Below are positions 2,140 through 32,644 of a stretch of 32,801 bases of DNA, in pieces. Both the position numbers and the translations under genes were made by a program. The notes under the pieces were generated by a model. It worked only from the letters and a program-made list of their open reading frames with translations. It made no database searches and was not told where the DNA came from. Source of the stretch: an uncultured Bacteroidota bacterium. Lineage in GTDB: Bacteria > Bacteroidota > Bacteroidia > UKL13-3. Positions within the stretch are counted from its first letter, which is position 1. Each line of letters starts with the position of its first letter. Location of the stretch: NCBI GenBank assembly GCA_903888395.1, contig CAISTO010000263.1:1-32801 (forward strand), given 5' to 3'.

Positions 2140-2952
2140 ATGGAAATAAAAAACACAAGCATAATAGATAACAATGATTCACTGTATACCGGATTCAATG
2201 AATTAGATAATTTGATTGGTCCATTAAATGCTGGTCTTTATGTGGTTGGTTCAAGACCAGGAATGGGGAAAACTGCACTCCTATTAAACATAACAGCAAA
2301 TTTGATGGCTAATGATAATTTTAAAGGAAAAATTGTTTACGTTTCTACTAACGATAGCAAGCAAATAAACCTAGAGCGTTTGACAAGTTTAATTACAAAA
2401 ATTCCAATTAGGGTTATACAGAACGATGAAATAATTTCGGATGAACAATTAAAATTAATGGATGAACATCTCATTTTAAAAATGGTAAATTCAAATCAGT
2501 TGAATATAATTACTTTCAACGGTCAACCAAAAATTGATAAAATTTCAAGTATAATACAACAGTCAAAATCACCTATTTCAATATTAATAATTGACTGTTT
2601 ACAAGATTTTATAAAAGAAAATGAAAGTTCCTTTGAAATACAAATAGAAGATATAATGGAATCTTTAAAAGTACTGGCCTCAGAACAAAATATTCTAATT
2701 ATTATCAGTGCTAGTATTGAAAGAAGGGTGGAACAGAGGAGCAATAAAATGCCAACATCAAATGACCTAATAGGAAATGTAGAAAAATATGCTGATGTAT
2801 TGCTGTTTTTACTTAGACCAGAATACTACCAAATTTTTGATAAAAATGAAAAGACGTATGCAAATATTTCAGTTACTAAAAATAATTTCGGTTCAACTGG
2901 AGAGATTGAATTAGCTACTGAAATGGATAAACTATTATTTAAAAACAAATAA
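2140..2952 (+). CDS. Stand-alone DnaB-like helicase C-terminal (RecA-fold) domain protein
   Basis: YTGFNELDNLIGPLNAGLYVVGSRPGMGKTALLLNITANLM (Walker A GSRPGMGKT), ILIIDCLQDF (Walker B-like); no N-terminal DnaB domain. Confidence 0.75.
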   Translation: MEIKNTSIIDNNDSLYTGFNELDNLIGPLNAGLYVVGSRPGMGKTALLLNITANLMANDNFKGKIVYVSTNDSKQINLERLTSLITKIPIRVIQNDEIISDEQLKLMDEHLILKMVNSNQLNIITFNGQPKIDKISSIIQQSKSPISILIIDCLQDFIKENESSFEIQIEDIMESLKVLASEQNILIIISASIERRVEQRSNKMPTSNDLIGNVEKYADVLLFLLRPEYYQIFDKNEKTYANISVTKNNFGSTGEIELATEMDKLLFKNK

Positions 2953-3005
2953 TTTTCAATTAATAAATAACCTAATTTTATAATAAATTTTAAAAAAATA
3001 AAACC

Positions 3006-3629
3006 ATGAAAAAAATTTACTTTTTAATTGTATTTACAATATCTGTCACCAATGTTTTTGCTGATACTCCATTAACCGAAACTAGTTTCTACAAAGCTTA
3101 TTTAGATGTTCCTATGGTTCAACAAGCACTTAAATCGAAGGGCAGATTAACGCATGATATGGTATTTTATTTGGCAAACGATACAAACGCCTTGGATATT
3201 AAAATTGCAATTATAAATGCTCTTGGTTGGAATCACAAAGGACGTGGCAATAGCAGTTCATACTTAAACTATGTTGTAAAATCAAAAAAGTATAAAGGAG
3301 AATCAAAATCTATTGCCTTTAAATTACAGGCAACATCAGATGAATTAATTTGCTATGCATATTTATTGTGCTTAGATAATTATTTTGATATAGTATATGC
3401 AAATGAAATAGCTCAATTAGCTTTAAAGAAAAGTCCAAATAGCTATGCTGTAAATATGATTGCTAATTTAATTAAAGTTCAAGGGTTGTATTTACTTGGC
3501 GAAAATTGTTATGCATATAAACTGTTCAATGAATTAAAAACAAATTCTACATTAAAAATAGACATGCGTAATGATGCTGAAAAATATATTTTTGAATACA
3601 TGAATTCAATTGGAGCAAATTGCAAATAG
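3006..3629 (+). CDS. Hypothetical secreted protein
   Basis: ORF with N-terminal signal peptide MKKIYFLIVFTISVTNVFA; ribosomal gene order between DnaB-like and SbcD-like genes. Confidence 0.6.
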   Translation: MKKIYFLIVFTISVTNVFADTPLTETSFYKAYLDVPMVQQALKSKGRLTHDMVFYLANDTNALDIKIAIINALGWNHKGRGNSSSYLNYVVKSKKYKGESKSIAFKLQATSDELICYAYLLCLDNYFDIVYANEIAQLALKKSPNSYAVNMIANLIKVQGLYLLGENCYAYKLFNELKTNSTLKIDMRNDAEKYIFEYMNSIGANCK

Positions 3630-3663
3630 TATTTTCAATAAATAAAAAAATAATAATAATAAA

Positions 3664-4779
3664 ATGAGTATAAAAATTATACATACAGCCGATAATCATA
3701 TTGGAATTAGCTATAACAGTGTTTCTCAAGCCAAAACAGAATTAGTATTAGAGCGCTTAACCTCGTTAAAGCGAATAGTTGATGAAGGAAATAAAGAAGG
3801 TGCAAATTATTTAGTGATAGCAGGTGATTTATTTGATGTAACAAAAGTGGTAAAGACTAGAATAATGGAGGTTATTAAAGTTTTGAAAACTTTCAATGAA
3901 AAGGTTATCATTATACCAGGCAACCACGATTTTTTTGTGGATGAATTTGACTCACTTTGGAACTATTTTAAAACAAATATTGATACTGAAAAAATTATTG
4001 TTTTAGATAAATACGAAGTGTTCATTGACCACTTAGGTGAGCAAGAAGTTAGGTTTTATCCAGCAGCATGCAGAACATTGCATTCTGAACAAAATATGAT
4101 TGGTTGGGTTAATTTAGAGAAGAAACCTATTCACTCAATAAATATTGGAATTGCACATGGAAACGTGGAAGGTCTTGGAAGAGATGATGATGGTAAATAT
4201 TTTAACATGACTCATTCTGAATTAACTAATTCCGGCCTCGACCTTTGGTTATTAGGACATATTCATGTTGCATATCCAACACAAAATGAGGTAAATGAAA
4301 ACCCAGGATATTTTATGAGTGGCACACACATGCCCGACTCTTGGAAGTCGACAAATGCTGGAAATGCATGGATAATAGAAATACATGAAGACAAAAAAGT
4401 AAAGGCTAAAAAATTTCAACCCTCTGCGTTTAAATATAAAGTAATAGAAAGTGATATCCGTTCACTTTCCGACATTGATAATTTTAAAAATCAAATATTG
4501 AATTGTGACAAAAAAAATACTGCAGTTAGGTTAAATTTAACGGGCACATTAGTTCAAAATGATTTATCTTATTTGGAGGAAACAATCAATGAAATTCGCA
4601 ATGAATTTATACATTTTGAAGAAAACAAATATATAAAGAGAAGGATAGATATAGATGCTATCAATAGCGAATTTGTTGAAGGTTCATTACCGCATATTTT
4701 ACTTTCAGAATTACTTCTTGAAGATCCGGATGGTATGAGTACACAAAAAGCATTTGAGGCTATTAAAAAAAATAATTAA
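3664..4779 (+). CDS. SbcD/YhaO-like metallophosphoesterase (DNA repair exonuclease)
   Basis: IIHTADNHIG, VIAGDLFD, IPGNHD, GHIHVA motifs of the Mre11/SbcD calcineurin-like fold. Confidence 0.88.
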   Translation: MSIKIIHTADNHIGISYNSVSQAKTELVLERLTSLKRIVDEGNKEGANYLVIAGDLFDVTKVVKTRIMEVIKVLKTFNEKVIIIPGNHDFFVDEFDSLWNYFKTNIDTEKIIVLDKYEVFIDHLGEQEVRFYPAACRTLHSEQNMIGWVNLEKKPIHSINIGIAHGNVEGLGRDDDGKYFNMTHSELTNSGLDLWLLGHIHVAYPTQNEVNENPGYFMSGTHMPDSWKSTNAGNAWIIEIHEDKKVKAKKFQPSAFKYKVIESDIRSLSDIDNFKNQILNCDKKNTAVRLNLTGTLVQNDLSYLEETINEIRNEFIHFEENKYIKRRIDIDAINSEFVEGSLPHILLSELLLEDPDGMSTQKAFEAIKKNN

Positions 4780-4784
4780 AAAAC

Positions 4785-7229
4785 ATGAAACTATTAAATT
4801 TACACTTGCACCCTTTTGCAGGCACCATTGATAAACAATATAATTTTGAAGATGGCCTTAATGTGGTATACGGACATAATGAAGCGGGAAAATCAACCAT
4901 TGTAAATGCTTTTTTAGCAGTTTTACTCGAATCAACGGATTTAACAAAAACAGTGTTTAAAAACACCTTGGCAAAATACATGCCCATTGGTGGCGATACT
5001 ATAAATATAGATTTAACATTTGAAGTAGCGGGAATTAAATACCAACTTAAAAAATCGTGGGGAGCTAATAATTTTTCTTCTTTAAATAAAGTTGGTGAGG
5101 CTCCAATAAATAATGCGGATACCGTTCAGAAAGAATTATTTAAATTATTGAATTTAAATAAATCAACTGTTAGAGAAATGATTTTTACTACACAAGCAAA
5201 AATTTCAAATACAATAGATGCTATTAAAAAAGATCCTGAAATAAATAATAGTTTAGACCAAATATTAAGGGGTGCAATTTTAAATACTGGCGGCATTATT
5301 CCCGAAAAATTAAAAGTACAACTTGAAAAAGAATTTAATGAACTTTCGTTGAATTGGAATTTGGAAAATGATGCTCCATCAATTAGTTCAAATAATAAAG
5401 GTTCATATGAAAATAGATGGGAAAAAGGTTTAGGAGAAATTTTAAAATTGGCTTATGAAATAAATGACAAACAAAAGGCCAAATTATATAGGGAACAATA
5501 TGATGAGAAGCTAAGTAACCTAGCTAATGAGATAAATATTCTGAGAGGCCACGTAAATTTAGATCAAAATTATATTGATTCTAATAAAGCTTTGATGGAA
5601 AGTTTATCCAATAGAATAACAATTCAAAGTGAACTAAAAAGTATTGAGTCAAATAAAGAAATAATTGTTGGTGCTCAGTCGGAATGGTATAAAATTAATG
5701 CCATGTTGCCGGTGTTAAGTGGTCAAATTATTGCTGATAAGGAGCAATTAAATCAATTAAATACTGAACTTGAAAATGCAAGAAAATCAGGTGATATAAC
5801 AATAAAAATTGCACAATTTGATAAGGTAAGTGCTTTAAAAATAAAATATGATACCACCAAAGAATTATTAACAAATACAAAGGTGGTAACAAATGTTGAC
5901 GTAGAAAATGTTAAAAAATTAGAGGATGAACTTATAAAAGCTCAAAACGAATTAAATGCATTGGCGTCTGCTCAAAATTTTATTGTTGAAATACAACCTA
6001 AGAAAAATTTAACCATTGAACTTCAACATGGAACAGCATTGGCCTCTCAAATTAATCTTGTTCAAGGAGAACCTTATGCCATTGAAGTAAATAAGAGTTT
6101 TGTATATTCTTCCGATGAAGTAACAATTCAAGTAAAATCATTGACACAAGAAATTAGTATATTAAACGATAAAATCACCTTGCTTAAAAAACAATTTGAA
6201 GATGCTGTAGCAATATTTGGAGTGATTAATATGGAGGAATTGAAACAAAATAATTTAATCTATAATCAAAATAATGATCAATATAAATTAGCAAAAACCA
6301 CTTTTGAAAACAGTATTGCAGGTACAACTTTCGAAAAATTAAAACAAGATATTGAAGAATTAAAAAATATTCCAAAAACAAGAGAAAAAGAGGTTTTAGA
6401 GAAATTATATCAAAATTTAATTGGTAAAATGGCAACTGATGATAATTCATATAAATTGTATGAGAAAAAGTTAAAAGAATTTGAAAACCTTTATACCTCC
6501 TTAGAAAATTTAGTGGAATTAATAATTGGTATCAGACAAAATGAAAAAATCACTCAAGACAAATTGAATTTACTTCCTGCCATTGATCCTTCCAATGATA
6601 TGGAAACATTTCAAATTGAATTTAAAGCCGCAAACGAAAGATTTAATAAAAATAAAAGTTTACTACAAGAAAAAGAATTAGAGAGAGCGAAACATGAAGG
6701 ACAAGAACAATTTGATTTAGCAATGGAAATACAAGATCAAATTGAATTATTAGATAGGAAAAAAAATCAAAAAGTTCAAGAAGCAAAAGCCATTCAATTG
6801 GTATTGAACAAGCTGAATGATATATTAAATAGGGCAACTATTAATCCATACCAAGCCTACGAAACTAATTTAAGTAATTATTTATCTGTTTTATCAGGTG
6901 GAAAATATCAATCTCTATCCAATTCTGAAGTTTCACCAAATGCTATTAAAAACACAACAAATAATTTAGAATTACCAATAGAAATGCTTTCTCAAGGTAC
7001 GTCTGGAATTCTTGGTTTGTCATTACGACTTGCAATGGCTGATTACTTTTTAGGTGAAAACAATGGCTTTATTGCCTTTGATGATCCTATGGTTGATTTT
7101 GATGAAAATAGGCAATTATTTGCAGCTACTTGTTTACAAAATTATTCGCAAAACAAACAGGTAATCATTTTCACTTGCCATCAATCTCATGCTGCGCATT
7201 TAGGTGGTTATTTAATTAATTTAAACTAA
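4785..7229 (+). CDS. SbcC/YhaN-like SMC-type AAA ATPase
   Basis: N-terminal VVYGHNEAGKSTIVNAFLAV Walker A, long coiled coil, C-terminal LSQGTSGILGLSLRLAMADYF...FIAFDDPMVDFD signature/Walker B; 5 nt downstream of the SbcD-like gene. Confidence 0.85.
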   Translation: MKLLNLHLHPFAGTIDKQYNFEDGLNVVYGHNEAGKSTIVNAFLAVLLESTDLTKTVFKNTLAKYMPIGGDTINIDLTFEVAGIKYQLKKSWGANNFSSLNKVGEAPINNADTVQKELFKLLNLNKSTVREMIFTTQAKISNTIDAIKKDPEINNSLDQILRGAILNTGGIIPEKLKVQLEKEFNELSLNWNLENDAPSISSNNKGSYENRWEKGLGEILKLAYEINDKQKAKLYREQYDEKLSNLANEINILRGHVNLDQNYIDSNKALMESLSNRITIQSELKSIESNKEIIVGAQSEWYKINAMLPVLSGQIIADKEQLNQLNTELENARKSGDITIKIAQFDKVSALKIKYDTTKELLTNTKVVTNVDVENVKKLEDELIKAQNELNALASAQNFIVEIQPKKNLTIELQHGTALASQINLVQGEPYAIEVNKSFVYSSDEVTIQVKSLTQEISILNDKITLLKKQFEDAVAIFGVINMEELKQNNLIYNQNNDQYKLAKTTFENSIAGTTFEKLKQDIEELKNIPKTREKEVLEKLYQNLIGKMATDDNSYKLYEKKLKEFENLYTSLENLVELIIGIRQNEKITQDKLNLLPAIDPSNDMETFQIEFKAANERFNKNKSLLQEKELERAKHEGQEQFDLAMEIQDQIELLDRKKNQKVQEAKAIQLVLNKLNDILNRATINPYQAYETNLSNYLSVLSGGKYQSLSNSEVSPNAIKNTTNNLELPIEMLSQGTSGILGLSLRLAMADYFLGENNGFIAFDDPMVDFDENRQLFAATCLQNYSQNKQVIIFTCHQSHAAHLGGYLINLN

Positions 7230-10726: not shown

Positions 10727-12703
10727 TTAAAATAAAAACATATTTTCACCTATGATCTCTTTAAAATGCTCGTAAATCATCACCATTGCTAAGGTATCTA
10801 ATTCACAGTATTTCAATAAAGCTTTAGTAATTTCTGTTCTTTCTTTTTCAGTCATATCTTGATACTGCAATTTAGAATACCCTGTAAGCGCTGCTCCTCC
10901 ATCTGATATTTCTTCTATTTCTGAAATGTTGTTTTTTAAATCCTCATCTATCCAACCATCAAATACCGGTGGTAACATTTTGTATGGATTTACAATTCTA
11001 CCATCTTCTATTTTTAACCAAATATGATTGACATCAAAATTTTTACTTGTCAAATTAATTGAACCAATTGCTTGACTGTATTTTTGTTTTAAATAGTCAC
11101 TCGAATTCAATGAGGCTGGCAATACTGCTTTGATGGAATTGGAACCTTTTGTATATGGATTATAATAATAATCTTTTACAATTTTATTTAAATCCACCAT
11201 GTTACGATCTCCCTCCCATTTTTCAACGCTTTTATCAGTTGATTTGGTAATAGTTTTTAGAAATGTAATTAATTCTTCCTTGTCCACTTCATTGCTTGCA
11301 TTCAGTTGTACTATAATTGCATTTAAAATCGAATTCTCATGGGTAGCAAATTTAAAAATAGTTCCATTATCGTTCTCTAATGCTTTTTTTAATGCTCGGG
11401 CAAAAATGAAATTCGGAAATTCTCCTGGGGTATTGCTTATAAATTCAGATTTATGCTCAATGGTTCCATCCTCAAGATACATATGATGAGAGAATTGAAA
11501 TGCAACTGACTCATATGGTTTTCTGCCAGCAGTAAAAGGCAGGGCAACAGTGCTTGTTTCAAAATCGATAAAATGCAATGGGAATTTCCATTTTGCCATT
11601 TCGTTTTTCAAACCATCCTTTTCTACATGTATTGAATTGTCATTGTCTCTTGCTTTTTCTACCTGAATCCATTGTCTTTCACCCGATGAAATTTTATCGG
11701 CTAAAACTTCAATTTTAAAATCATCTTCGGTAAGGTCTTGCATAAAAAGACGATTGGATTCCATCAAATCTTTGCCTCTAAAATTCCAAACTTCCATGGC
11801 ATTTGGCTTCTTAAAATCATCTTCTAGCCAATTATGTTGCTTTTTAAAACAATATTCAAATCCAGACAACAAACCGTTTTGTTTGTCTTCAATAGTAGCC
11901 TTGAATTCGCATTTCTTACAGGCACTATATTTTGTTTCCCAATTAATATATTTTGAGGCTAAATAGGAATCTTTAAACAATTTTAAGGCCTCGTGGAAAC
12001 CTAAATTATCATGGTATCTATATTTGTCATTAATAATATCATTTACAATAATATCTACATTTATTTCCGATAAAACGGATTCTCCAATTTCCTCAATGCT
12101 GCTAACTTTTGTAATAATATCTGTTCTAGGATTTCCATTAGCAGGAACTCTAAATAGTTGATTTAATCCATCAATTGTAGCTGATTTAGTTTTATCAGCC
12201 ATCATAAAATAAGCCTCAAATTGAAAGTTAGGACAAGTTAGCGAGGCAATATGTTTTTGAAAAGCCAAATCAAATAAATAAGGTTTCCAGCTACTAACTA
12301 ATCCACCACGGACACCAACGAAAATATTTTTTTCATTGGGATTGAAAGATTTTGCTTTCACTTCAATCAATCGAATGTGATTGCCTTTTTTTACTAAAAT
12401 ATCTGTTCTAATAAAGAAATTATCTACTAAAAAAGCGGCCTCGTATATAACAACATTCTCTAATAATAATGCTTCCTGAGTTAACTGAAATGCTTTTTCG
12501 TATTCGTAATTCTCCGTATTAATAAAAATACCATTTGGATAATGCAAACGTGCCAATTCTTCTACTTGAAATCCGCCTTTTGCAAGCGCCTGCAAAAAAG
12601 AATCAGCATTTTTTTGATTTGCAAATTGCTTATCACTTGTAAAAAACAATTTATTAGGACATTCTAGCCCTAACTTAAAACGAGATTTTGAGAGTACTTT
12701 CAT
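10727..12703 (-). CDS. DUF2779 protein (Cas4-like PD-(D/E)XK nuclease plus DEDD exonuclease-like domain)
   Basis: N-terminal LSKSRFKLGLECPNKLFFT, IRLIEVKAKS (ExK), Cys cluster CKKCEFKA...YC; C-terminal HFIDFETSTVALPF...PYESVAFQFSHH and LLKYCELDTLAMVMIYEH. Confidence 0.8.
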   Translation of the reverse strand: MKVLSKSRFKLGLECPNKLFFTSDKQFANQKNADSFLQALAKGGFQVEELARLHYPNGIFINTENYEYEKAFQLTQEALLLENVVIYEAAFLVDNFFIRTDILVKKGNHIRLIEVKAKSFNPNEKNIFVGVRGGLVSSWKPYLFDLAFQKHIASLTCPNFQFEAYFMMADKTKSATIDGLNQLFRVPANGNPRTDIITKVSSIEEIGESVLSEINVDIIVNDIINDKYRYHDNLGFHEALKLFKDSYLASKYINWETKYSACKKCEFKATIEDKQNGLLSGFEYCFKKQHNWLEDDFKKPNAMEVWNFRGKDLMESNRLFMQDLTEDDFKIEVLADKISSGERQWIQVEKARDNDNSIHVEKDGLKNEMAKWKFPLHFIDFETSTVALPFTAGRKPYESVAFQFSHHMYLEDGTIEHKSEFISNTPGEFPNFIFARALKKALENDNGTIFKFATHENSILNAIIVQLNASNEVDKEELITFLKTITKSTDKSVEKWEGDRNMVDLNKIVKDYYYNPYTKGSNSIKAVLPASLNSSDYLKQKYSQAIGSINLTSKNFDVNHIWLKIEDGRIVNPYKMLPPVFDGWIDEDLKNNISEIEEISDGGAALTGYSKLQYQDMTEKERTEITKALLKYCELDTLAMVMIYEHFKEIIGENMFLF

Positions 12704-25268: not shown

Positions 25269-25307
25269 TACTATGCATTAACATTGCATAGTATTGCAAT
25301 AAATTTG
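25269..25307 (+). promoter_or_regulatory. WYL-type operator candidate TACTATGCATTAACATTGCATAGTA (25269-25293) + N6 + TAAATTTG (25300-25307)
   Basis: 9-bp arms; shared with sites at 26498 and 30764, same 6-nt gap to the -7 box. Confidence 0.65.
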
Positions 25308-25360
25308 TTTTAAATCTCAATAATGGGATGTGATATTTAAGTACTAACAATTTAAAAAAT

Positions 25361-26500
25361 ATGGGAGAAAACAAAAAAATTAAACAAGCAGAATTATACC
25401 CACTTTCAAAAAAAGAATTTAAAAAATTATATAACGATGCGTGGAAAAATGGTTGGGTTTATGGTAAATTTTTTCAAGAATTATATGATGAATATTTAAT
25501 AAACTGGGTTTATTTTGTTGATTACCTTGATTTACTTATGGGTTTAAACAATGAAAACAGAAAATACAAAAGAATTCCTGATAACTTTGTAATTGTTAAA
25601 GCAAAAAATCAAAAACCTATATTAATTGAGGCAAAAGATTTTTATAATTTTGATATAGAGATTCCTTTTAATAAATCTAAAAACATTGAAATTCTAATTG
25701 GTGAGGCACCTCCTTATTGGAAAGGAAATGCGGAGGAAAATGAAAAGGCTTATTTCTATAATCCGAGACAAACATATAACAGTCCATGGCTTAATACTCC
25801 TGTAAACTGGAAAAGTAATAAAAGGAAATTTCGAGATAAGAATGAAAAAGAAAAAAATGATTTTTATAAAACAGCAAAACTAGAATTATTAGCAAGTAAA
25901 AGAGTTGTTTTATTTGATATTTTCCCATTCCCAATTATTCAAGATACTAAAGTAAGAACTGAAATTACTGGTGGTTATGCAAATCATATTGAAAATTATT
26001 TTTTAAAAAAGTATACAGAAATTACTGAATATTTAAAATTTAAAGAACAAAATATTACATTTAGTCATGGAATGGTAGCAACTGAATTAGGTTCAATTCA
26101 GTTTCTTTGCGATAAAACAATTGAAAATTTTCCTATATATCAGTCTATTATTAAAAATAGTATTGAATTTAATGCTTTTGATGATTGGGAATCATGGATA
26201 CAAAAACTAATTAACATTACTCCAAACAAAGCTAAAATAAGCGAAGAAAAAACAGATATGAAAAATCATTATTTGAAATATAAAATAAATTATATTCCTA
26301 TTGTAAAAGTAAATTCAGATGAAAAATATGATTTTTCAGATAAGTTGAAATTTATTAGAAATCTCATGGGAATAGATAGTTTATCTATTAATGAATCAGA
26401 TATACAAAAAATATACAAAAAAATAACAATGCTACCAATTTTTATAAAGGGTCAAAGCGTTGTTATTAATGGTATTTTTATAAATGGAAATATATCCTAA
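25361..26500 (+). CDS. Uncharacterised protein (possible uracil-DNA-glycosylase-like fold)
   Basis: 379-aa ORF; IEILIGEAPPYWKGN recalls the GExPG motif A of the UDG superfamily, but assignment is weak. Confidence 0.4.
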   Translation: MGENKKIKQAELYPLSKKEFKKLYNDAWKNGWVYGKFFQELYDEYLINWVYFVDYLDLLMGLNNENRKYKRIPDNFVIVKAKNQKPILIEAKDFYNFDIEIPFNKSKNIEILIGEAPPYWKGNAEENEKAYFYNPRQTYNSPWLNTPVNWKSNKRKFRDKNEKEKNDFYKTAKLELLASKRVVLFDIFPFPIIQDTKVRTEITGGYANHIENYFLKKYTEITEYLKFKEQNITFSHGMVATELGSIQFLCDKTIENFPIYQSIIKNSIEFNAFDDWESWIQKLINITPNKAKISEEKTDMKNHYLKYKINYIPIVKVNSDEKYDFSDKLKFIRNLMGIDSLSINESDIQKIYKKITMLPIFIKGQSVVINGIFINGNIS

Positions 26501-26537
26501 CTCTGCAATCATATTGCAGAGTTATTTAGTATCTTTG
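26498..26537 (+). promoter_or_regulatory. WYL-type operator candidate TAACTCTGCAAT-CAT-ATTGCAGAGTTA (26498-26524) and TATCTTTG -7 box (26530-26537)
   Basis: Perfect 12-bp arms with 3-nt spacer; begins in the stop codon of the upstream gene. Confidence 0.75.
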
Positions 26538-26551
26538 TTAAAAAATTAATT

Positions 26552-28069
26552 ATGTCAGAAAAATATCCTCATGTATTATCCAAATCCCGCTTTGTGTCGG
26601 GTGTGCAATGTGCTAAAAAATTATTTTTAGAATTGAACCAAAAAGAATTGAAACCTGCTATTTCTGCTAGTCAGCAAGCTGTTTTTGATCAAGGACATAG
26701 AATTGGTAAAATGGCTCAAGACCTTTATCCAAATGGAATTGATTTAACCAGTTTAACACATTTTGATTATACCGATGCCATAGACAATACTTTAAATGAA
26801 ATGCGAAAAAAAACACCTGTTTTATATGAAGCAGCATTTTATAACAATGAAGTATTATCGGTTTTGGATATTTTATTACATGATGCCAATGGAAATATAC
26901 ATGCCATAGAAGTTAAAAGCAGTGGCTCACTGAATGATTATTATATTACAGATGCCTCTTTACAATATTGGGTGATGGCAAATGCGGGACATGCCCCTGA
27001 AACCTTTTCTATTTTAAATATAAATACCAATTATAAAAAAAATGGACCAATTGATTTAAAAGATTTTTTTAAGATAACAGATATCACAAAAACAGTCATT
27101 GCAAAACAAGCATGGATTTCAGAAAATATTGAACAGCTTAAACTAATCCTAAAAGGTTCGGAAGTTCCAGTAAAAGAAATTGGAAAGCATTGTTCAGACC
27201 CGTTCCAATGTGATTTTAAAAGTCATTGTTGGGGTAATTTATTAGACCCAGATAAAATTTTCAATATTTATGGCGGAGGAAAAAAAATGTGGGACTTGTA
27301 CCATGATGGAATTACATATTTAGCTGACATCCCAGAAAATTATAAATTAAACCACCGACAAATTTGCCAAGTAAATGGTCAAAAAACTGGAGCAAGTTAT
27401 ATAGACAAAAAAAACATTGCCACCTTTATAAATAAGGCAGTTTATCCATTGCATTTTTTTGATTTTGAAACTATCAATACCATCGTTCCTGTATTAAATG
27501 GAACCAAACCCTTTCAGCAAGTTGGATTTCAATATTCATTACATATTTTAAACAATATGAATGAAGAACCAATACACAAAGAATTTTTAGCGAATGAAAA
27601 TGATTTTAGCAATATTCAAGCTAAGAATCCTCGTCAAGCCATGATTGACCAAATGAAAGCTGATTTTGGGGAAACAGGAAGTATTGTAGCTTACAAAGCT
27701 GATTTTGAAATGGGAATTATTAAAAAATTAGCAGAGGATTTTCCAAATGATAAAATATTTTTAGAAAGCTTAATTACACGTTTTATTGATTTATTAGATG
27801 TTTTTAGTAATGCTTGGTACTACTTGCCTGTAATGGGGAAAAGCGCATCAATAAAAGATGTTTTACCAACATTGGTTCCTCATTTAACTTATAAAGGTTT
27901 AAACATTAATAATGGTGAATTAGCCAGTAAAACATTTGCAAGCATGGTGGAGGGAAATTATGTGGGCAATTTAAATGACACAAGAAACGATTTATTAGCT
28001 TATTGCAAATTAGATACTTTAGCCATGTTTGAAATTTGGAAAGTGTTAAACAATGAAATAAAAATTTAA
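26552..28069 (+). CDS. DUF2779 protein (Cas4-like nuclease plus DEDD-like domain)
   Basis: LSKSRFVSGVQCAKKLFLE, IHAIEVKSSG, HCSDPFQCDFKSHC, HFFDFETINTIVPVLNGTKPFQQVGFQYSLH, LAYCKLDTLAMFEIW. Confidence 0.82.
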   Translation: MSEKYPHVLSKSRFVSGVQCAKKLFLELNQKELKPAISASQQAVFDQGHRIGKMAQDLYPNGIDLTSLTHFDYTDAIDNTLNEMRKKTPVLYEAAFYNNEVLSVLDILLHDANGNIHAIEVKSSGSLNDYYITDASLQYWVMANAGHAPETFSILNINTNYKKNGPIDLKDFFKITDITKTVIAKQAWISENIEQLKLILKGSEVPVKEIGKHCSDPFQCDFKSHCWGNLLDPDKIFNIYGGGKKMWDLYHDGITYLADIPENYKLNHRQICQVNGQKTGASYIDKKNIATFINKAVYPLHFFDFETINTIVPVLNGTKPFQQVGFQYSLHILNNMNEEPIHKEFLANENDFSNIQAKNPRQAMIDQMKADFGETGSIVAYKADFEMGIIKKLAEDFPNDKIFLESLITRFIDLLDVFSNAWYYLPVMGKSASIKDVLPTLVPHLTYKGLNINNGELASKTFASMVEGNYVGNLNDTRNDLLAYCKLDTLAMFEIWKVLNNEIKI

Positions 28070-28072
28070 AAA

Positions 28073-28960
28073 ATGATAGTATTAGTAAAAGTAAATAAAA
28101 CGTATAAATATGGAACCGATGCAAAATTAGCTGCTTACAGTTCTTGGTGTATTGGCAGTTTGTTAGACAATGAAGCTCTTAGAAATGAATATAAATATTT
28201 GGTGGCTTATGCCAATAATGAAATAGTTGGAACATACCAAATTCAAGGGTTAGCTTTAGCCAACAATAATTTTAGGGGTAATCGAAGAATCAAATTTAAT
28301 TTAGCCGATGTTGACGAAAATTGCAGTGCTCAATTAAGTAAAATAATCAATGATTTAAAATCAACCTGCTCTAATAAAGTAAGAAATAAAAGTCCATTTA
28401 GCTTAATCAGTAGAGAACATTTAAATGAATTTGAGGTGGAGCATCATCACCTCAATTGCAACCCATTAAATGAAATTCCTGTTTTGGATTCCGAAGAATT
28501 AGAAACATTAATAAACCTAAATGGCAGCCATATAAGTAATCAACATTGGTTAAAAATTACTGTTAAAAGGAACACTTATGATTCATTTAGTAAACAGCAT
28601 TCCATTAGCCATTTATCAATCGCGGAACTACATCCCAATGGAAAAATGACCTTGAACATTTCAAACAATGCAAGTGGTAAAATGATGCTTGTAAAAAACA
28701 CCATTTCAAGCTCAGAAAAACAAGATTTGTTAGCAATATTTACTACTTTTAATAACAATTCAAAAAATGCTATCAAACAAATTATAGACAGTGATGTAAC
28801 ATCACATGTTGCTCATTTCAATGAAATGGCAATAACATTTGAGAGTTTTGAAGATGCCTCACACACTATTAAAAACAATCATGAACATTGGAATGGCAAT
28901 GTATTGTTTACCAAAAGTGGCTTACTCAATGATATCGTAAATTTAATGACAATATGTTAA
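28073..28960 (+). CDS. Hypothetical protein
   Basis: 4 nt downstream of DUF2779 gene; N-terminal AYANNEIVGTYQIQGLALANNNFRGNRRIKFNL could be a PUA/ASCH-like beta domain (weak). Confidence 0.5.
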   Translation: MIVLVKVNKTYKYGTDAKLAAYSSWCIGSLLDNEALRNEYKYLVAYANNEIVGTYQIQGLALANNNFRGNRRIKFNLADVDENCSAQLSKIINDLKSTCSNKVRNKSPFSLISREHLNEFEVEHHHLNCNPLNEIPVLDSEELETLINLNGSHISNQHWLKITVKRNTYDSFSKQHSISHLSIAELHPNGKMTLNISNNASGKMMLVKNTISSSEKQDLLAIFTTFNNNSKNAIKQIIDSDVTSHVAHFNEMAITFESFEDASHTIKNNHEHWNGNVLFTKSGLLNDIVNLMTIC

Positions 28961-28965
28961 TATTT

Positions 28966-29610
28966 TTAAACTACAGGGTAATACACCGTTCCCCAATCTT
29001 CGTCAATATTTTCTAACATAATATCAATGATTAAAGGCACAAGTAAAGATAACATATTAGCACCATCATTTACCTGAGCCCTATTTACTTTACTTTTAAA
29101 AGTAGCCCCACCATGTATTAACTGGTTCCTAACAGTGTACAACCTATCTAAAACAATTTCTAATAGCAAGTCTACTTTTTGATTAGATAAATATTGGTGT
29201 GCATTAGCTATCGATATTTGAAGAAGTTTGTGCCAATCAACTTTATCACCCCTATTATAATCCCAAAAAGGTTTGAAAACATATTTGTTTTCAATTAATA
29301 AGCGAATATTTGCAGGGAATTTTAACCACATTAAATTATAAAACCTATCATCAACATCGTGAGTAACCAGTTTATTTATAAAAATTTTGAATCGTTGTTG
29401 TTCATTTAAACTAATACTATTTTCTTCCATTGCATAACAAGAATTGAATGCAATCCATAAACTAATGAATTTCAAATCCATATTATCATCAATTTCCTCG
29501 GCACATTTTAACCAACTTATGGCCCTGTGTATCCTAGTATTAATTGGCTTTTCGCCAATTTTAATCAAATTAAATTTTTCTTTTAAATAAATTGCATCAA
29601 ATGTTTTCAT
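28966..29610 (-). CDS. HEPN-like (Apea-type) protein
   Basis: All-helical sequence with C-terminal LYTVRNQLIHGG (R-x4-H), the HEPN RNase-type motif. Confidence 0.6.
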   Translation of the reverse strand: MKTFDAIYLKEKFNLIKIGEKPINTRIHRAISWLKCAEEIDDNMDLKFISLWIAFNSCYAMEENSISLNEQQRFKIFINKLVTHDVDDRFYNLMWLKFPANIRLLIENKYVFKPFWDYNRGDKVDWHKLLQISIANAHQYLSNQKVDLLLEIVLDRLYTVRNQLIHGGATFKSKVNRAQVNDGANMLSLLVPLIIDIMLENIDEDWGTVYYPVV

Positions 29611-29661
29611 ATTACTTACAATAATATAATTAAAGCGCTAAAATTATAATCCAATTTATTT

Positions 29662-30744
29662 TTAATTGACTATTTCAAAAAAATCCCTGAAACGACCCAA
29701 TAAAAATGAAAGTTCAGGTGCCCTTTTAAAAACAGTATTTGCATTTTCTGAATAGGGTAATAATTTTATTTTTATTATGACTGTCATTTCATTTTTTAAT
29801 TTATCAATTGAAATTATTTTTTGAGAATGATGCAATGGCATTTTCTTCACATAGGAAGCCGCCCAACCTTTGAATTTGATTTTTATATCTTCTATTTTCT
29901 CGTTTTCCCTATGATTCCAAATGCCAATACTATATTTGAAATAATCTTTTAGCTTAAAAAACTTTGCTAATTCTTTATAATTAAAATGAATGATTTCTTC
30001 TGTTTCCTGATCTAAAAGTACATCAACCTGAAGTTTAAAAATTTGATCTAATCGATAGTTTACAATATATTTTTTTTGATCGCTAACAACTGCTGCCGTT
30101 AAATAATAAATATTTTCATACAATCTAATTTGTAAAGGAGATACCTGATGCCATTTAGATTTATTTTTATTATCATCTAATTGATTTACATCTATGTAAT
30201 TGAATTCAATACATTCTTCTCTTTTAATATTACCTAATATTTTAATTGCTAAACTTATTATATCTTCTTCATTTATTAAACTAGGTTTAGTAACAATTAC
30301 CGCACTGGAACAAGCCATTTCTTCCTCGTCAATTTTGTAATCCTCTATCAAATTAGCCATAATTTTACTTACAGCTGGAATGTTTTCGTAATTTTTAAGT
30401 ATGCCAATTAAAAATGGAATGGTAAGTCGCTCATCTTCTTCCAAATCGCCAAATTCTGGCATAATTGCATTTTCAGGATAACGATATAATTTGTTTTCAT
30501 ATATCAAATTAAAAAACCATCCTTTCTTGTTTTTCCTTATCCCTGCATTACTATAAATAAAATCACCTAATCTTAAACTTTTTATATGGGAGTTCAACAT
30601 CCGAATCTTAATGGTTTCCATTCCTAGGCTAATTAATTTTTGGTTTACATAATTAAGTATTTCTTCTAGTGTGGAAGGTCTTGTCCTAATTAATTCATCA
30701 ATGAATTGAATTCTTATTTGCTTTGGAGAATTATAATTTAACAT
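29662..30744 (-). CDS. WYL-domain transcriptional regulator
   Basis: N-terminal wHTH-like region (RTRPSTLEEILNYVNQKL...), central IEFNYIDVN...WHQVSPLQIRLYENIYYLTAAVVSDQKKYIVNYRLDQI, typical WYL layout. Confidence 0.78.
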   Translation of the reverse strand: MLNYNSPKQIRIQFIDELIRTRPSTLEEILNYVNQKLISLGMETIKIRMLNSHIKSLRLGDFIYSNAGIRKNKKGWFFNLIYENKLYRYPENAIMPEFGDLEEDERLTIPFLIGILKNYENIPAVSKIMANLIEDYKIDEEEMACSSAVIVTKPSLINEEDIISLAIKILGNIKREECIEFNYIDVNQLDDNKNKSKWHQVSPLQIRLYENIYYLTAAVVSDQKKYIVNYRLDQIFKLQVDVLLDQETEEIIHFNYKELAKFFKLKDYFKYSIGIWNHRENEKIEDIKIKFKGWAASYVKKMPLHHSQKIISIDKLKNEMTVIIKIKLLPYSENANTVFKRAPELSFLLGRFRDFFEIVN

Positions 30745-30748
30745 GCTT

Positions 30749-30802
30749 CAAATATAATTTTTCTACTCTGCAATACCATTGCATAGTAAAAATATATATT
30801 TG
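30749..30802. promoter_or_regulatory. Divergent promoter with WYL-type operator TACTCTGCAAT-ACC-ATTGCATAGTA (30764-30788)
   Basis: Flanked by TATATTTG on the + strand (30795-30802, 6-nt gap) and TATATTTG on the - strand (30756-30749, 7-nt gap). Confidence 0.75.
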
Positions 30803-30907: not shown

Positions 30908-32569
30908 ATGGAATCAACACTGAACAATCCCTTGCTTACAAGTATTACTCATATATATGAAAACAGGGATGATTTATTTAAAAACACACTAATAATTGAA
31001 AATTTAAGTGCTGATTTTAAAACTGTAACTGACTTTTTATTAGTTGACGATAAAACCGCTGCTGTATTGTCTATAATCATATGCGAGCAAATAATGGGAG
31101 ACGGAAAGCCATTTAAAAAAACATTGAAAATTTTAGGTTTTAGTCCTTTAGACTTTATTTTTATAAGTAATAAATTTAAAGAACTTAAAAAGAAGGGTTG
31201 GGTCAGGCTATGCAAAAAAAGATACAATTCAAGGTCTGAAGACATAGAAATAGCGAAAGAATTAATGGATGCTATTATGTATAATAATATAGAAAAATTG
31301 ATAATTTATGAACCAAAGAATTTATCGGAGGCTTTACTACAAATTAGAAATTTTACTAAAAATATTATAGGTGACTTTTACCAAGATGAACTCATAGAAG
31401 CTACTTATGATTACATAGAAAGACTTACTACTTTTCCTTATATTAATCAAATTTTAGAAGAGGATAAACTTGAAAAATTAGAAAAAGTAATATTGATATG
31501 GCTTTCAGCTGAAAACATTTTTAATAAGGAAGAATTTGATTTAGATAATATTATAGAAATGTTTAGTGAAGACCATTCCGTTTCTTATAGTTTAAAACAA
31601 AGAATAATAAACCATGAAAGTATAATCATGAAAGATGGATACCTAGAATATTTGAAACCCAATTTAGCCGATTTTTCCTCCGTAAAATTAGGTGATAGAT
31701 TAACAGACTTACTAAATGTGCATTGCCCAAAAATGGAACATGTTAAAGTTGCACCCAAATATTGTCAATTGATTGATCCAAATGATGTAGAAACTCAGCA
31801 ATTGTTATTTAACGATAATAACAAAAAATCAATAGACGATATTATCAATCTTACTTCTGAGTCTAAATATTTAAATTTAACTAAAAAATTTACTGATAAG
31901 GGAATGAAACCGGGACTAACCATGTTGTTTTACGGATTACCTGGAACAGGAAAAACCGAATTGGTAAAACAAATTTCTAAAACACATAATAGAGCAATAT
32001 TTCAAGTGGAAATGTCGGCTATTAAAGACATGTTTGTGGGTAATTCCGAGAAAAATTTAAAAAGAGTTTTTAAAGATTATAGCGATGCGGTTAAACAATA
32101 TAAAATTACTCCCATACTGCTATTTAATGAAGCCGATGCAATATTAGGCAAAAGGAATTTAGTTCAAAATGCAGTTGATCAAATGCTCAATTCTATGCAA
32201 AATATTTTATTGCAGGAATTAGAAGATTTTAAAGGTATTTTTATAGCAACCACCAATCTAATTGAAAATATAGATGGAGCTTTTGACCGAAGGTTACTTT
32301 ATAAATTAAAGTTTGAAAACCCCAATGATGAAACTCGTTATAAAATATTACAAAATCAATTTGCAAATATCAATAACAAAACGCTAAAGCTAATTAGTAC
32401 GCAGCACCAATTAAGTGGCGGGCAAATTCAAAACATAAAAAAGAAGTTTGTAATTGACCAATTGCTTTTTGAAAACAATTCAAATATTTCTAATAAATTA
32501 ATTGATTTTATTGAAGAAGAAACACAGTTTAGGTCAATAACTAAAAACAAAATTGGATTTAATAAATAA
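30908..32569 (+). CDS. AAA+ ATPase (CDC48/VPS4-like ATPase module)
   Basis: TMLFYGLPGTGKTELVKQIS Walker A, PILLFNEADAILGKR Walker B, IFIATTNLIENIDGAFDRRL. Confidence 0.85.
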   Translation: MESTLNNPLLTSITHIYENRDDLFKNTLIIENLSADFKTVTDFLLVDDKTAAVLSIIICEQIMGDGKPFKKTLKILGFSPLDFIFISNKFKELKKKGWVRLCKKRYNSRSEDIEIAKELMDAIMYNNIEKLIIYEPKNLSEALLQIRNFTKNIIGDFYQDELIEATYDYIERLTTFPYINQILEEDKLEKLEKVILIWLSAENIFNKEEFDLDNIIEMFSEDHSVSYSLKQRIINHESIIMKDGYLEYLKPNLADFSSVKLGDRLTDLLNVHCPKMEHVKVAPKYCQLIDPNDVETQQLLFNDNNKKSIDDIINLTSESKYLNLTKKFTDKGMKPGLTMLFYGLPGTGKTELVKQISKTHNRAIFQVEMSAIKDMFVGNSEKNLKRVFKDYSDAVKQYKITPILLFNEADAILGKRNLVQNAVDQMLNSMQNILLQELEDFKGIFIATTNLIENIDGAFDRRLLYKLKFENPNDETRYKILQNQFANINNKTLKLISTQHQLSGGQIQNIKKKFVIDQLLFENNSNISNKLIDFIEEETQFRSITKNKIGFNK

Positions 32570-32605: not shown

Positions 32606-32644
32606 AAAAAACCTAGGTTAATTTGATAATTAATCTAGGTTTTT
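32606..32644. terminator. Rho-independent terminator
   Basis: AAAAACCTAGGTTAA-TTTGATAA-TTAATCTAGGTTTTT: 15-bp stem with one G.U pair, A tract and T tract (usable bidirectionally). Confidence 0.8.

Follow-up and report, generated by a model that had tools for sequence, protein, structure and literature searches.

The window, by which we mean the whole 32,801-nucleotide stretch of DNA analyzed here, carries three copies of a 25-bp palindrome in a gene cluster that encodes a WYL-domain regulator, each copy standing 6 nt from a TAnnTTTG promoter box, and these sites and their fixed geometry are conserved with WYL orthologs and target genes in other Bacteroidota. Judged from sequence, the WYL protein very probably binds these predicted operators. 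The initial annotation had described three long inverted repeats sharing the consensus TACTMTGCAAT-N3-ATTGCAKAGTA, and all three were recovered where it had placed them, with one, two and no mismatches for sites 1, 2 and 3, respectively, and no match in shuffled sequence (n = 100). As read from the sequence, operator 1, TACTATGCATTAACATTGCATAGTA (25269-25293, + strand), has TGCATT and not TGCAAT in its left arm and lies 67 nt upstream of the ATG of a gene for a 379-aa protein. Operator 2, TAACTCTGCAATCATATTGCAGAGTTA (26498-26524, +; 25-bp core 26499-26523), ends in A/T and not T/A, overlaps the stop codon of the 379-aa gene and is located upstream of a DUF2779 gene. Operator 3, TACTCTGCAATACCATTGCATAGTA (30764-30788), is common to the divergent promoters of the WYL gene and an AAA+ ATPase gene.

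On the + strand, the -7 boxes TAAATTTG (25300-25307), TATCTTTG (26530-26537) and, for the AAA gene, TATATTTG (30795-30802) follow operator 1, core 2 and operator 3 at 6 nt. The proposed 6-nt gap was therefore upheld for sites 1 and 3, and for site 2 when the 25-bp core is considered, as the 27-bp palindrome leaves 5 nt. A further box proposed to face the WYL gene on the - strand was also present, as TATATTTG at 30756-30749; it is separated from operator 3 by 7 nt and precedes the ATG of the WYL gene by 4 nt.

The first gene of the cluster (25361..26500, +) encodes the 379-aa protein, which belongs to no family and has an IGEAPP motif; homologs were found in the sister loci L064 and L065 only, plus weak ones in L060 and L036, and its low-confidence structure model gave no PDB match. 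The DUF2779 protein (505 aa; 26552..28069, +; 118.7 bits) shows weak Cas4/RecB-like and RNase_H_2 similarity, which suggests that it may be a nuclease, and the gene for a 295-aa protein (28073..28960, +) begins after a 3-nt gap and probably shares its operon. The WYL gene itself (360 aa; 29662..30744, -; PADLOC WYL E 2.9e-12) is followed 51 nt behind, on the same strand, by a gene for a 214-aa protein (28966..29610, -), with which it is likely co-transcribed. The AAA+ ATPase (553 aa; 30908..32569, +; Pfam AAA 2.2e-22) is distantly IetA-like: IetA is its best PADLOC match (2.5e-28), but it falls far short of the curated NCBIfam IetA model (87.7 bits, cut-off 510), and no protease gene, such as an IetAS system would have beside it, is seen before the contig ends at 32801. 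What follows the AAA gene is a strong inverted repeat with A/T tails (32607-32644), likely a bidirectional terminator, and MMPL is the next gene in L054. The controlled genes may have a role in phage defense. Elsewhere in the window, positions 2140-7229 encode in a row a DnaB-like helicase domain, a 207-aa protein, a metallophosphatase and an SMC-like ATPase, with weak Lamassu LmuB similarity, and are a candidate defense or repair operon; a second, longer DUF2779 protein (658 aa) is encoded at 10727-12703, without the operator palindrome.

The PADLOC match of the 360-aa protein, together with the domain order in its structure model and its Foldseek matches, place it among WYL-domain transcription factors, while against Pfam WYL alone it scored 18.2 bits, just below the cut-off of 21.8. 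The model, which is moderate (pLDDT 73, pTM 0.51), has an N-terminal winged-helix-like region, a helical linker, a WYL barrel and a C-terminal extension. Foldseek matched DriD, PafBC, CapW and BrxR, the first two ranking above the last two, and a profile of nine WYL orthologs found no PDB chain at E<=1, BrxR and CapW included. The kinship with BrxR and CapW suggested by the initial annotation was thus not borne out, as there was no PDB sequence match, the fold comparison favored DriD and PafBC, and the operator lies upstream of the -7 box.

A motif search of the organism's own genome (3.28 Mb, 484 contigs, completeness 88%) at <=3 mismatches returned the three sites of the window and no further copy, with none for the reversed control. 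Among 376 Bacteroidia genomes, the full motif at <=2 mismatches occurred in the own genome only. At 3 mismatches it was found in 16 others, with one match each; that of genome G020 alone adjoins a WYL ortholog, and in the other 15 the fetched stretch gave no WYL-profile match. One of these matches (contig C27 of G297) lies between convergent genes and has a terminator-like look. In genomes without this WYL gene the full motif is essentially absent, in line with the proposed link to the regulator. These numbers also bear on the idea that the repeats arose by chance or represent terminators or remnants of transposons, which we regard as extremely improbable: the overlap of site 2 with a stop codon would suit a terminator, but the repeats have no GC-rich stem with a T-run, the equivalent of site 2 in L065 sits 35 nt beyond the stop, chance expectation is zero, the boxes keep a fixed offset and the genome holds just three copies.

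WYL orthologs were found at 12 Bacteroidota loci (38-47% identity, duplicates between collections included); on genome contigs, an alignment-based scan succeeded where a protein-only one had found no relative, and two tblastn searches of plasmid sequences gave no match. All 12 orthologs have a palindrome beside the WYL gene. It is clear in L063 (AAGTTTGCAATGCCATTGCATAGTA), L064 (CGCTATGCATTTTTATTGCAGACTT), L067 (AACTACGCAATTGGCTTGCGTAGTT), L068 (CACTACGCATTTACGTTGCGTAGTT), L071 (TGCTACGCAATTATGTTGCGTAGAA) and L073 (TACTACGAAATTACGTTGCGTAGAT), as well as in L065, and degenerate in a four-genome clade (L066, L069, L070 and L072). The gene divergent from the WYL gene is an AAA gene in L064-L067, L069, L070 and L072, and a small unrelated gene (cluster c3) in L068, L071 and L073. 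Wherever a close DUF2779 homolog occurs, its operon is preceded by a second operator, directly upstream of the homolog in L064 (9449-9473) and L065 (9641-9665) and upstream of a 297-aa/DUF2779 operon in L067, thereby matching site 2 of the window. The WYL gene is the only family common to all orthologous loci, in part because the loci were found through it. When operator and box were searched as a composite in eight WYL-bearing genomes outside clade g41, the WYL and DUF2779 sites were the main matches; clade g41, with only the degenerate palindrome, gave none. Two composite matches with 3 mismatches (G000, contig C19; G224, contig C4) were judged to be chance. That the palindrome tracks the orthologs, recurs at the DUF2779 operon and is nearly absent where the ortholog is missing strongly supports what had been claimed, namely a single regulon that belongs to the WYL protein and includes its own gene.

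To score the spacing, TAnnTTTG was sought at offsets 0 to 19 from the core edge for 17 cores, giving 34 flanks. A box matching at 5 or 6 of 6 positions was found at 6 nt in 21/34 flanks and at any other offset in at most one, although many of the scored sites are related by descent and the flank counts are not independent events. The same 6-nt spacing occurs at different promoters, these being sites 1, 2 and 3, the DUF2779-operon sites and a retron site (see below). In L068, L071 and L073, a perfect box lies 6 nt away on both sides of the core. A clean two-sided rule was dropped, as several sites have a one-sided box and the forward box of L063 is at 0 nt. The ATG of the WYL gene comes 3-4 nt after its -7 box in the window (30744-30756) and in L063, L068, L071 and L073, from which the WYL mRNA is predicted to be probably leaderless.

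The retron site was found in genome G263, where a composite site with 2 mismatches lies upstream of a reverse transcriptase gene, on a contig other than that of the WYL gene; G263 is a metagenome bin, and the two contigs are assumed to come from one cell. The element reads AACTCTGCAAATAGACTGCACAGTT, 6 nt, TAATTTTG (L123:4623-6130). The leader behind it greatly outdoes shuffled sequences in folding (z -6.9), and 14-nt a1/a2-like complementary ends, UUUAAGCCUGCUGC...GUAGCAGGCUUAA, close it in the manner of a retron RNA, after which comes a retron-type reverse transcriptase (RVT_1 4.3e-25; PADLOC retron RT 6e-97). With such an enzyme preceded by a folded RNA with an a1/a2 inverted repeat, the locus qualifies as a retron; an Rfam search of L123 matched no retron RNA family. 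In G020, a weaker composite site with 3 mismatches (L124:5929-5965; its palindrome, AAGTATGCAATCATATTGCATACTT, is perfect, and TAGTATTG lies 6 nt away) lies about 430 nt upstream of recD-recC and is a possible regulon member.

A relaxed composite motif (<=2 mismatches) was then run against 368 genomes, with 48 matches listed against 2 for the reversed pattern. Thirty-one loci were fetched, all outside the known orthologs. A WYL gene lay within about 250 nt of 12 of these 31 blind matches, and about seven further matches fell at RNA-repair genes that have no WYL gene close by. With 61 WYL genes counted across 59 genomes, about one per genome, such proximity would rarely arise by chance. The WYL genes so found form a second Bacteroidota clade related to the WYL protein of the window (hhalign probability 97.8, E 8.5e-13), with RtcB, T4-type RNA ligase, RlaP and TROVE/Ro proteins as neighbors and with the operator CTRCGCAA-N5-TTGCGYAG (loci L154-L184, e.g. 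L158, L160, L161, L167, L169, L176 and L180; three sites each in some, namely L166 and L168). Conversely, in a sample of 38 WYL genes drawn through the Pfam model, the core occurred at 0-1 mismatch in four; in two others it had 3 mismatches, and a box matching at 5-6/6 positions stood at the correct offset. These six are all from the second clade, whose members L223 and L224 are without the core, and the rest of the 38 resemble the null. In our literature search we found no described operator of this type or WYL-rtcB link in Bacteroidota, which is no proof of absence.

The sample also bears on whether the palindromes might be owned by another regulator, the WYL gene being merely one target. 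The own genome has six WYL-domain matches, one of them from the related clade, so other candidates exist; we nevertheless consider this improbable, since the palindrome tracks two WYL clades, the other sampled WYL genes lack it, and no family besides WYL is shared by all orthologous loci, partly through how these were found. One further WYL gene, which belongs to the RNA-repair clade, lies on contig C56 of the own genome (L218:8336-9373) and is preceded by TTGTGCAACCTATCTGCACAA and TAAATTTG; cross-talk between the two WYL proteins in one cell is possible.

We propose that the WYL protein (360 aa) regulates transcription as a dimer and that its operator is the 25-bp palindrome exactly 6 nt upstream of TAnnTTTG. 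The protein would have three targets in the window: the overlapping divergent WYL/AAA promoters, the 379-aa gene and the operon of the putative DUF2779 nuclease. The bound dimer would cover about -42 to -18, the site of the would-be -33 contact, and by default would repress the promoters of all three sites, including that of the WYL gene. If its WYL domain then bound a nucleic acid, for example ssDNA from phage attack or DNA damage, the protein may change conformation and the genes be switched on. Repression appears the likelier default because the bound operator covers the -33 region and because the defense-linked WYL regulators of known sign, CapW and BrxR, repress. We judge it somewhat probable that the WYL protein represses, and we hold the whole model, from dimer and spacing to repression and ligand release, with the same moderate confidence.

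With the same regulator and sites, the WYL protein could instead be a ligand-dependent activator that replaces a missing -33 element and hands the polymerase to the -7 box. PafBC offers a precedent, as it performs sigma adaptation at a -26 motif once it has bound ssDNA (PMC11804915), and the distance of 6 nt is invariant at non-homologous promoters. TTG at 17-23 nt was rare (2/45 sites vs 12/55 background boxes), but as the background rate is itself close to the chance value, little weight attaches to the -33 argument. Many RNA-repair sites have imperfect -7 boxes, as activation would allow, whereas those of the window are consensus. Structurally, the modeled protein comes nearest to DriD and PafBC; on the other hand, PafBC without polymerase does not bind its promoter (PMC11804915), and the signs of CapW and BrxR speak for repression. 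We take activation as a serious alternative, though one less probable than the default repression preferred here.

Among known systems, CapW is a CBASS-associated repressor in defense whose operator overlaps the -10 (PMC9122588). It resembles the WYL protein of the window in its winged-helix-WYL-WCX layout, in a palindrome of ~20-25 bp in the promoter and in proposed ligand sensing by WYL (PMC9122588); it differs in that in the window the core stops 6 nt short of the -7 box, that the window WYL has no sequence match to it and a fold match weaker than that to DriD/PafBC, and that no CBASS genes were found in the window cluster. BrxR, also a repressor in defense, of BREX and defense islands (PMC9122601), is similar in regulating itself and in having another operator at an operon further downstream (PMC9122601), but its boxes have 11-bp arms with a 5-bp spacer and lie between promoter and gene, its homologs are mainly from Proteobacteria, and no BREX genes were found in the cluster. 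Neither placement, over the -10 or between promoter and gene, is that of the window operators. DriD and PafBC, the best fold matches to the modeled protein, are similar in that DriD has a 20-bp pseudo-palindrome and one site ahead of its own gene (PMC12340889) and PafBC works through a -26 motif (PMC11804915); both, however, are proven activators, the site positions of DriD vary and PafBC is a heterodimer. RtcR is a ligand-sensing regulator controlling rtcB (PMC7790460), but it is a CARF-domain activator, while the Bacteroidia sites found here adjoin WYL genes.

More tentatively still, this WYL branch of the Bacteroidota could be a promoter class of its own, in which the palindrome, at its exact 6-nt distance from the -7 box, would replace the -33 element and a ligand-bound dimer would activate, often bidirectionally, with one clade directed to DNA defense or repair genes and a retron and the other to an RNA-repair regulon (rtcB, RNA ligase, rlaP and Ro/TROVE). 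The work gives this branch of WYL sensors an exact and searchable DNA code, a palindrome, 6 nt and TAnnTTTG, which finds candidate regulons blind: a retron, the cluster of DUF2779 nuclease and AAA ATPase, and RNA-repair genes. With it, the ligand of the WYL sensor and the question of whether it represses or activates become directly testable with short DNA probes.
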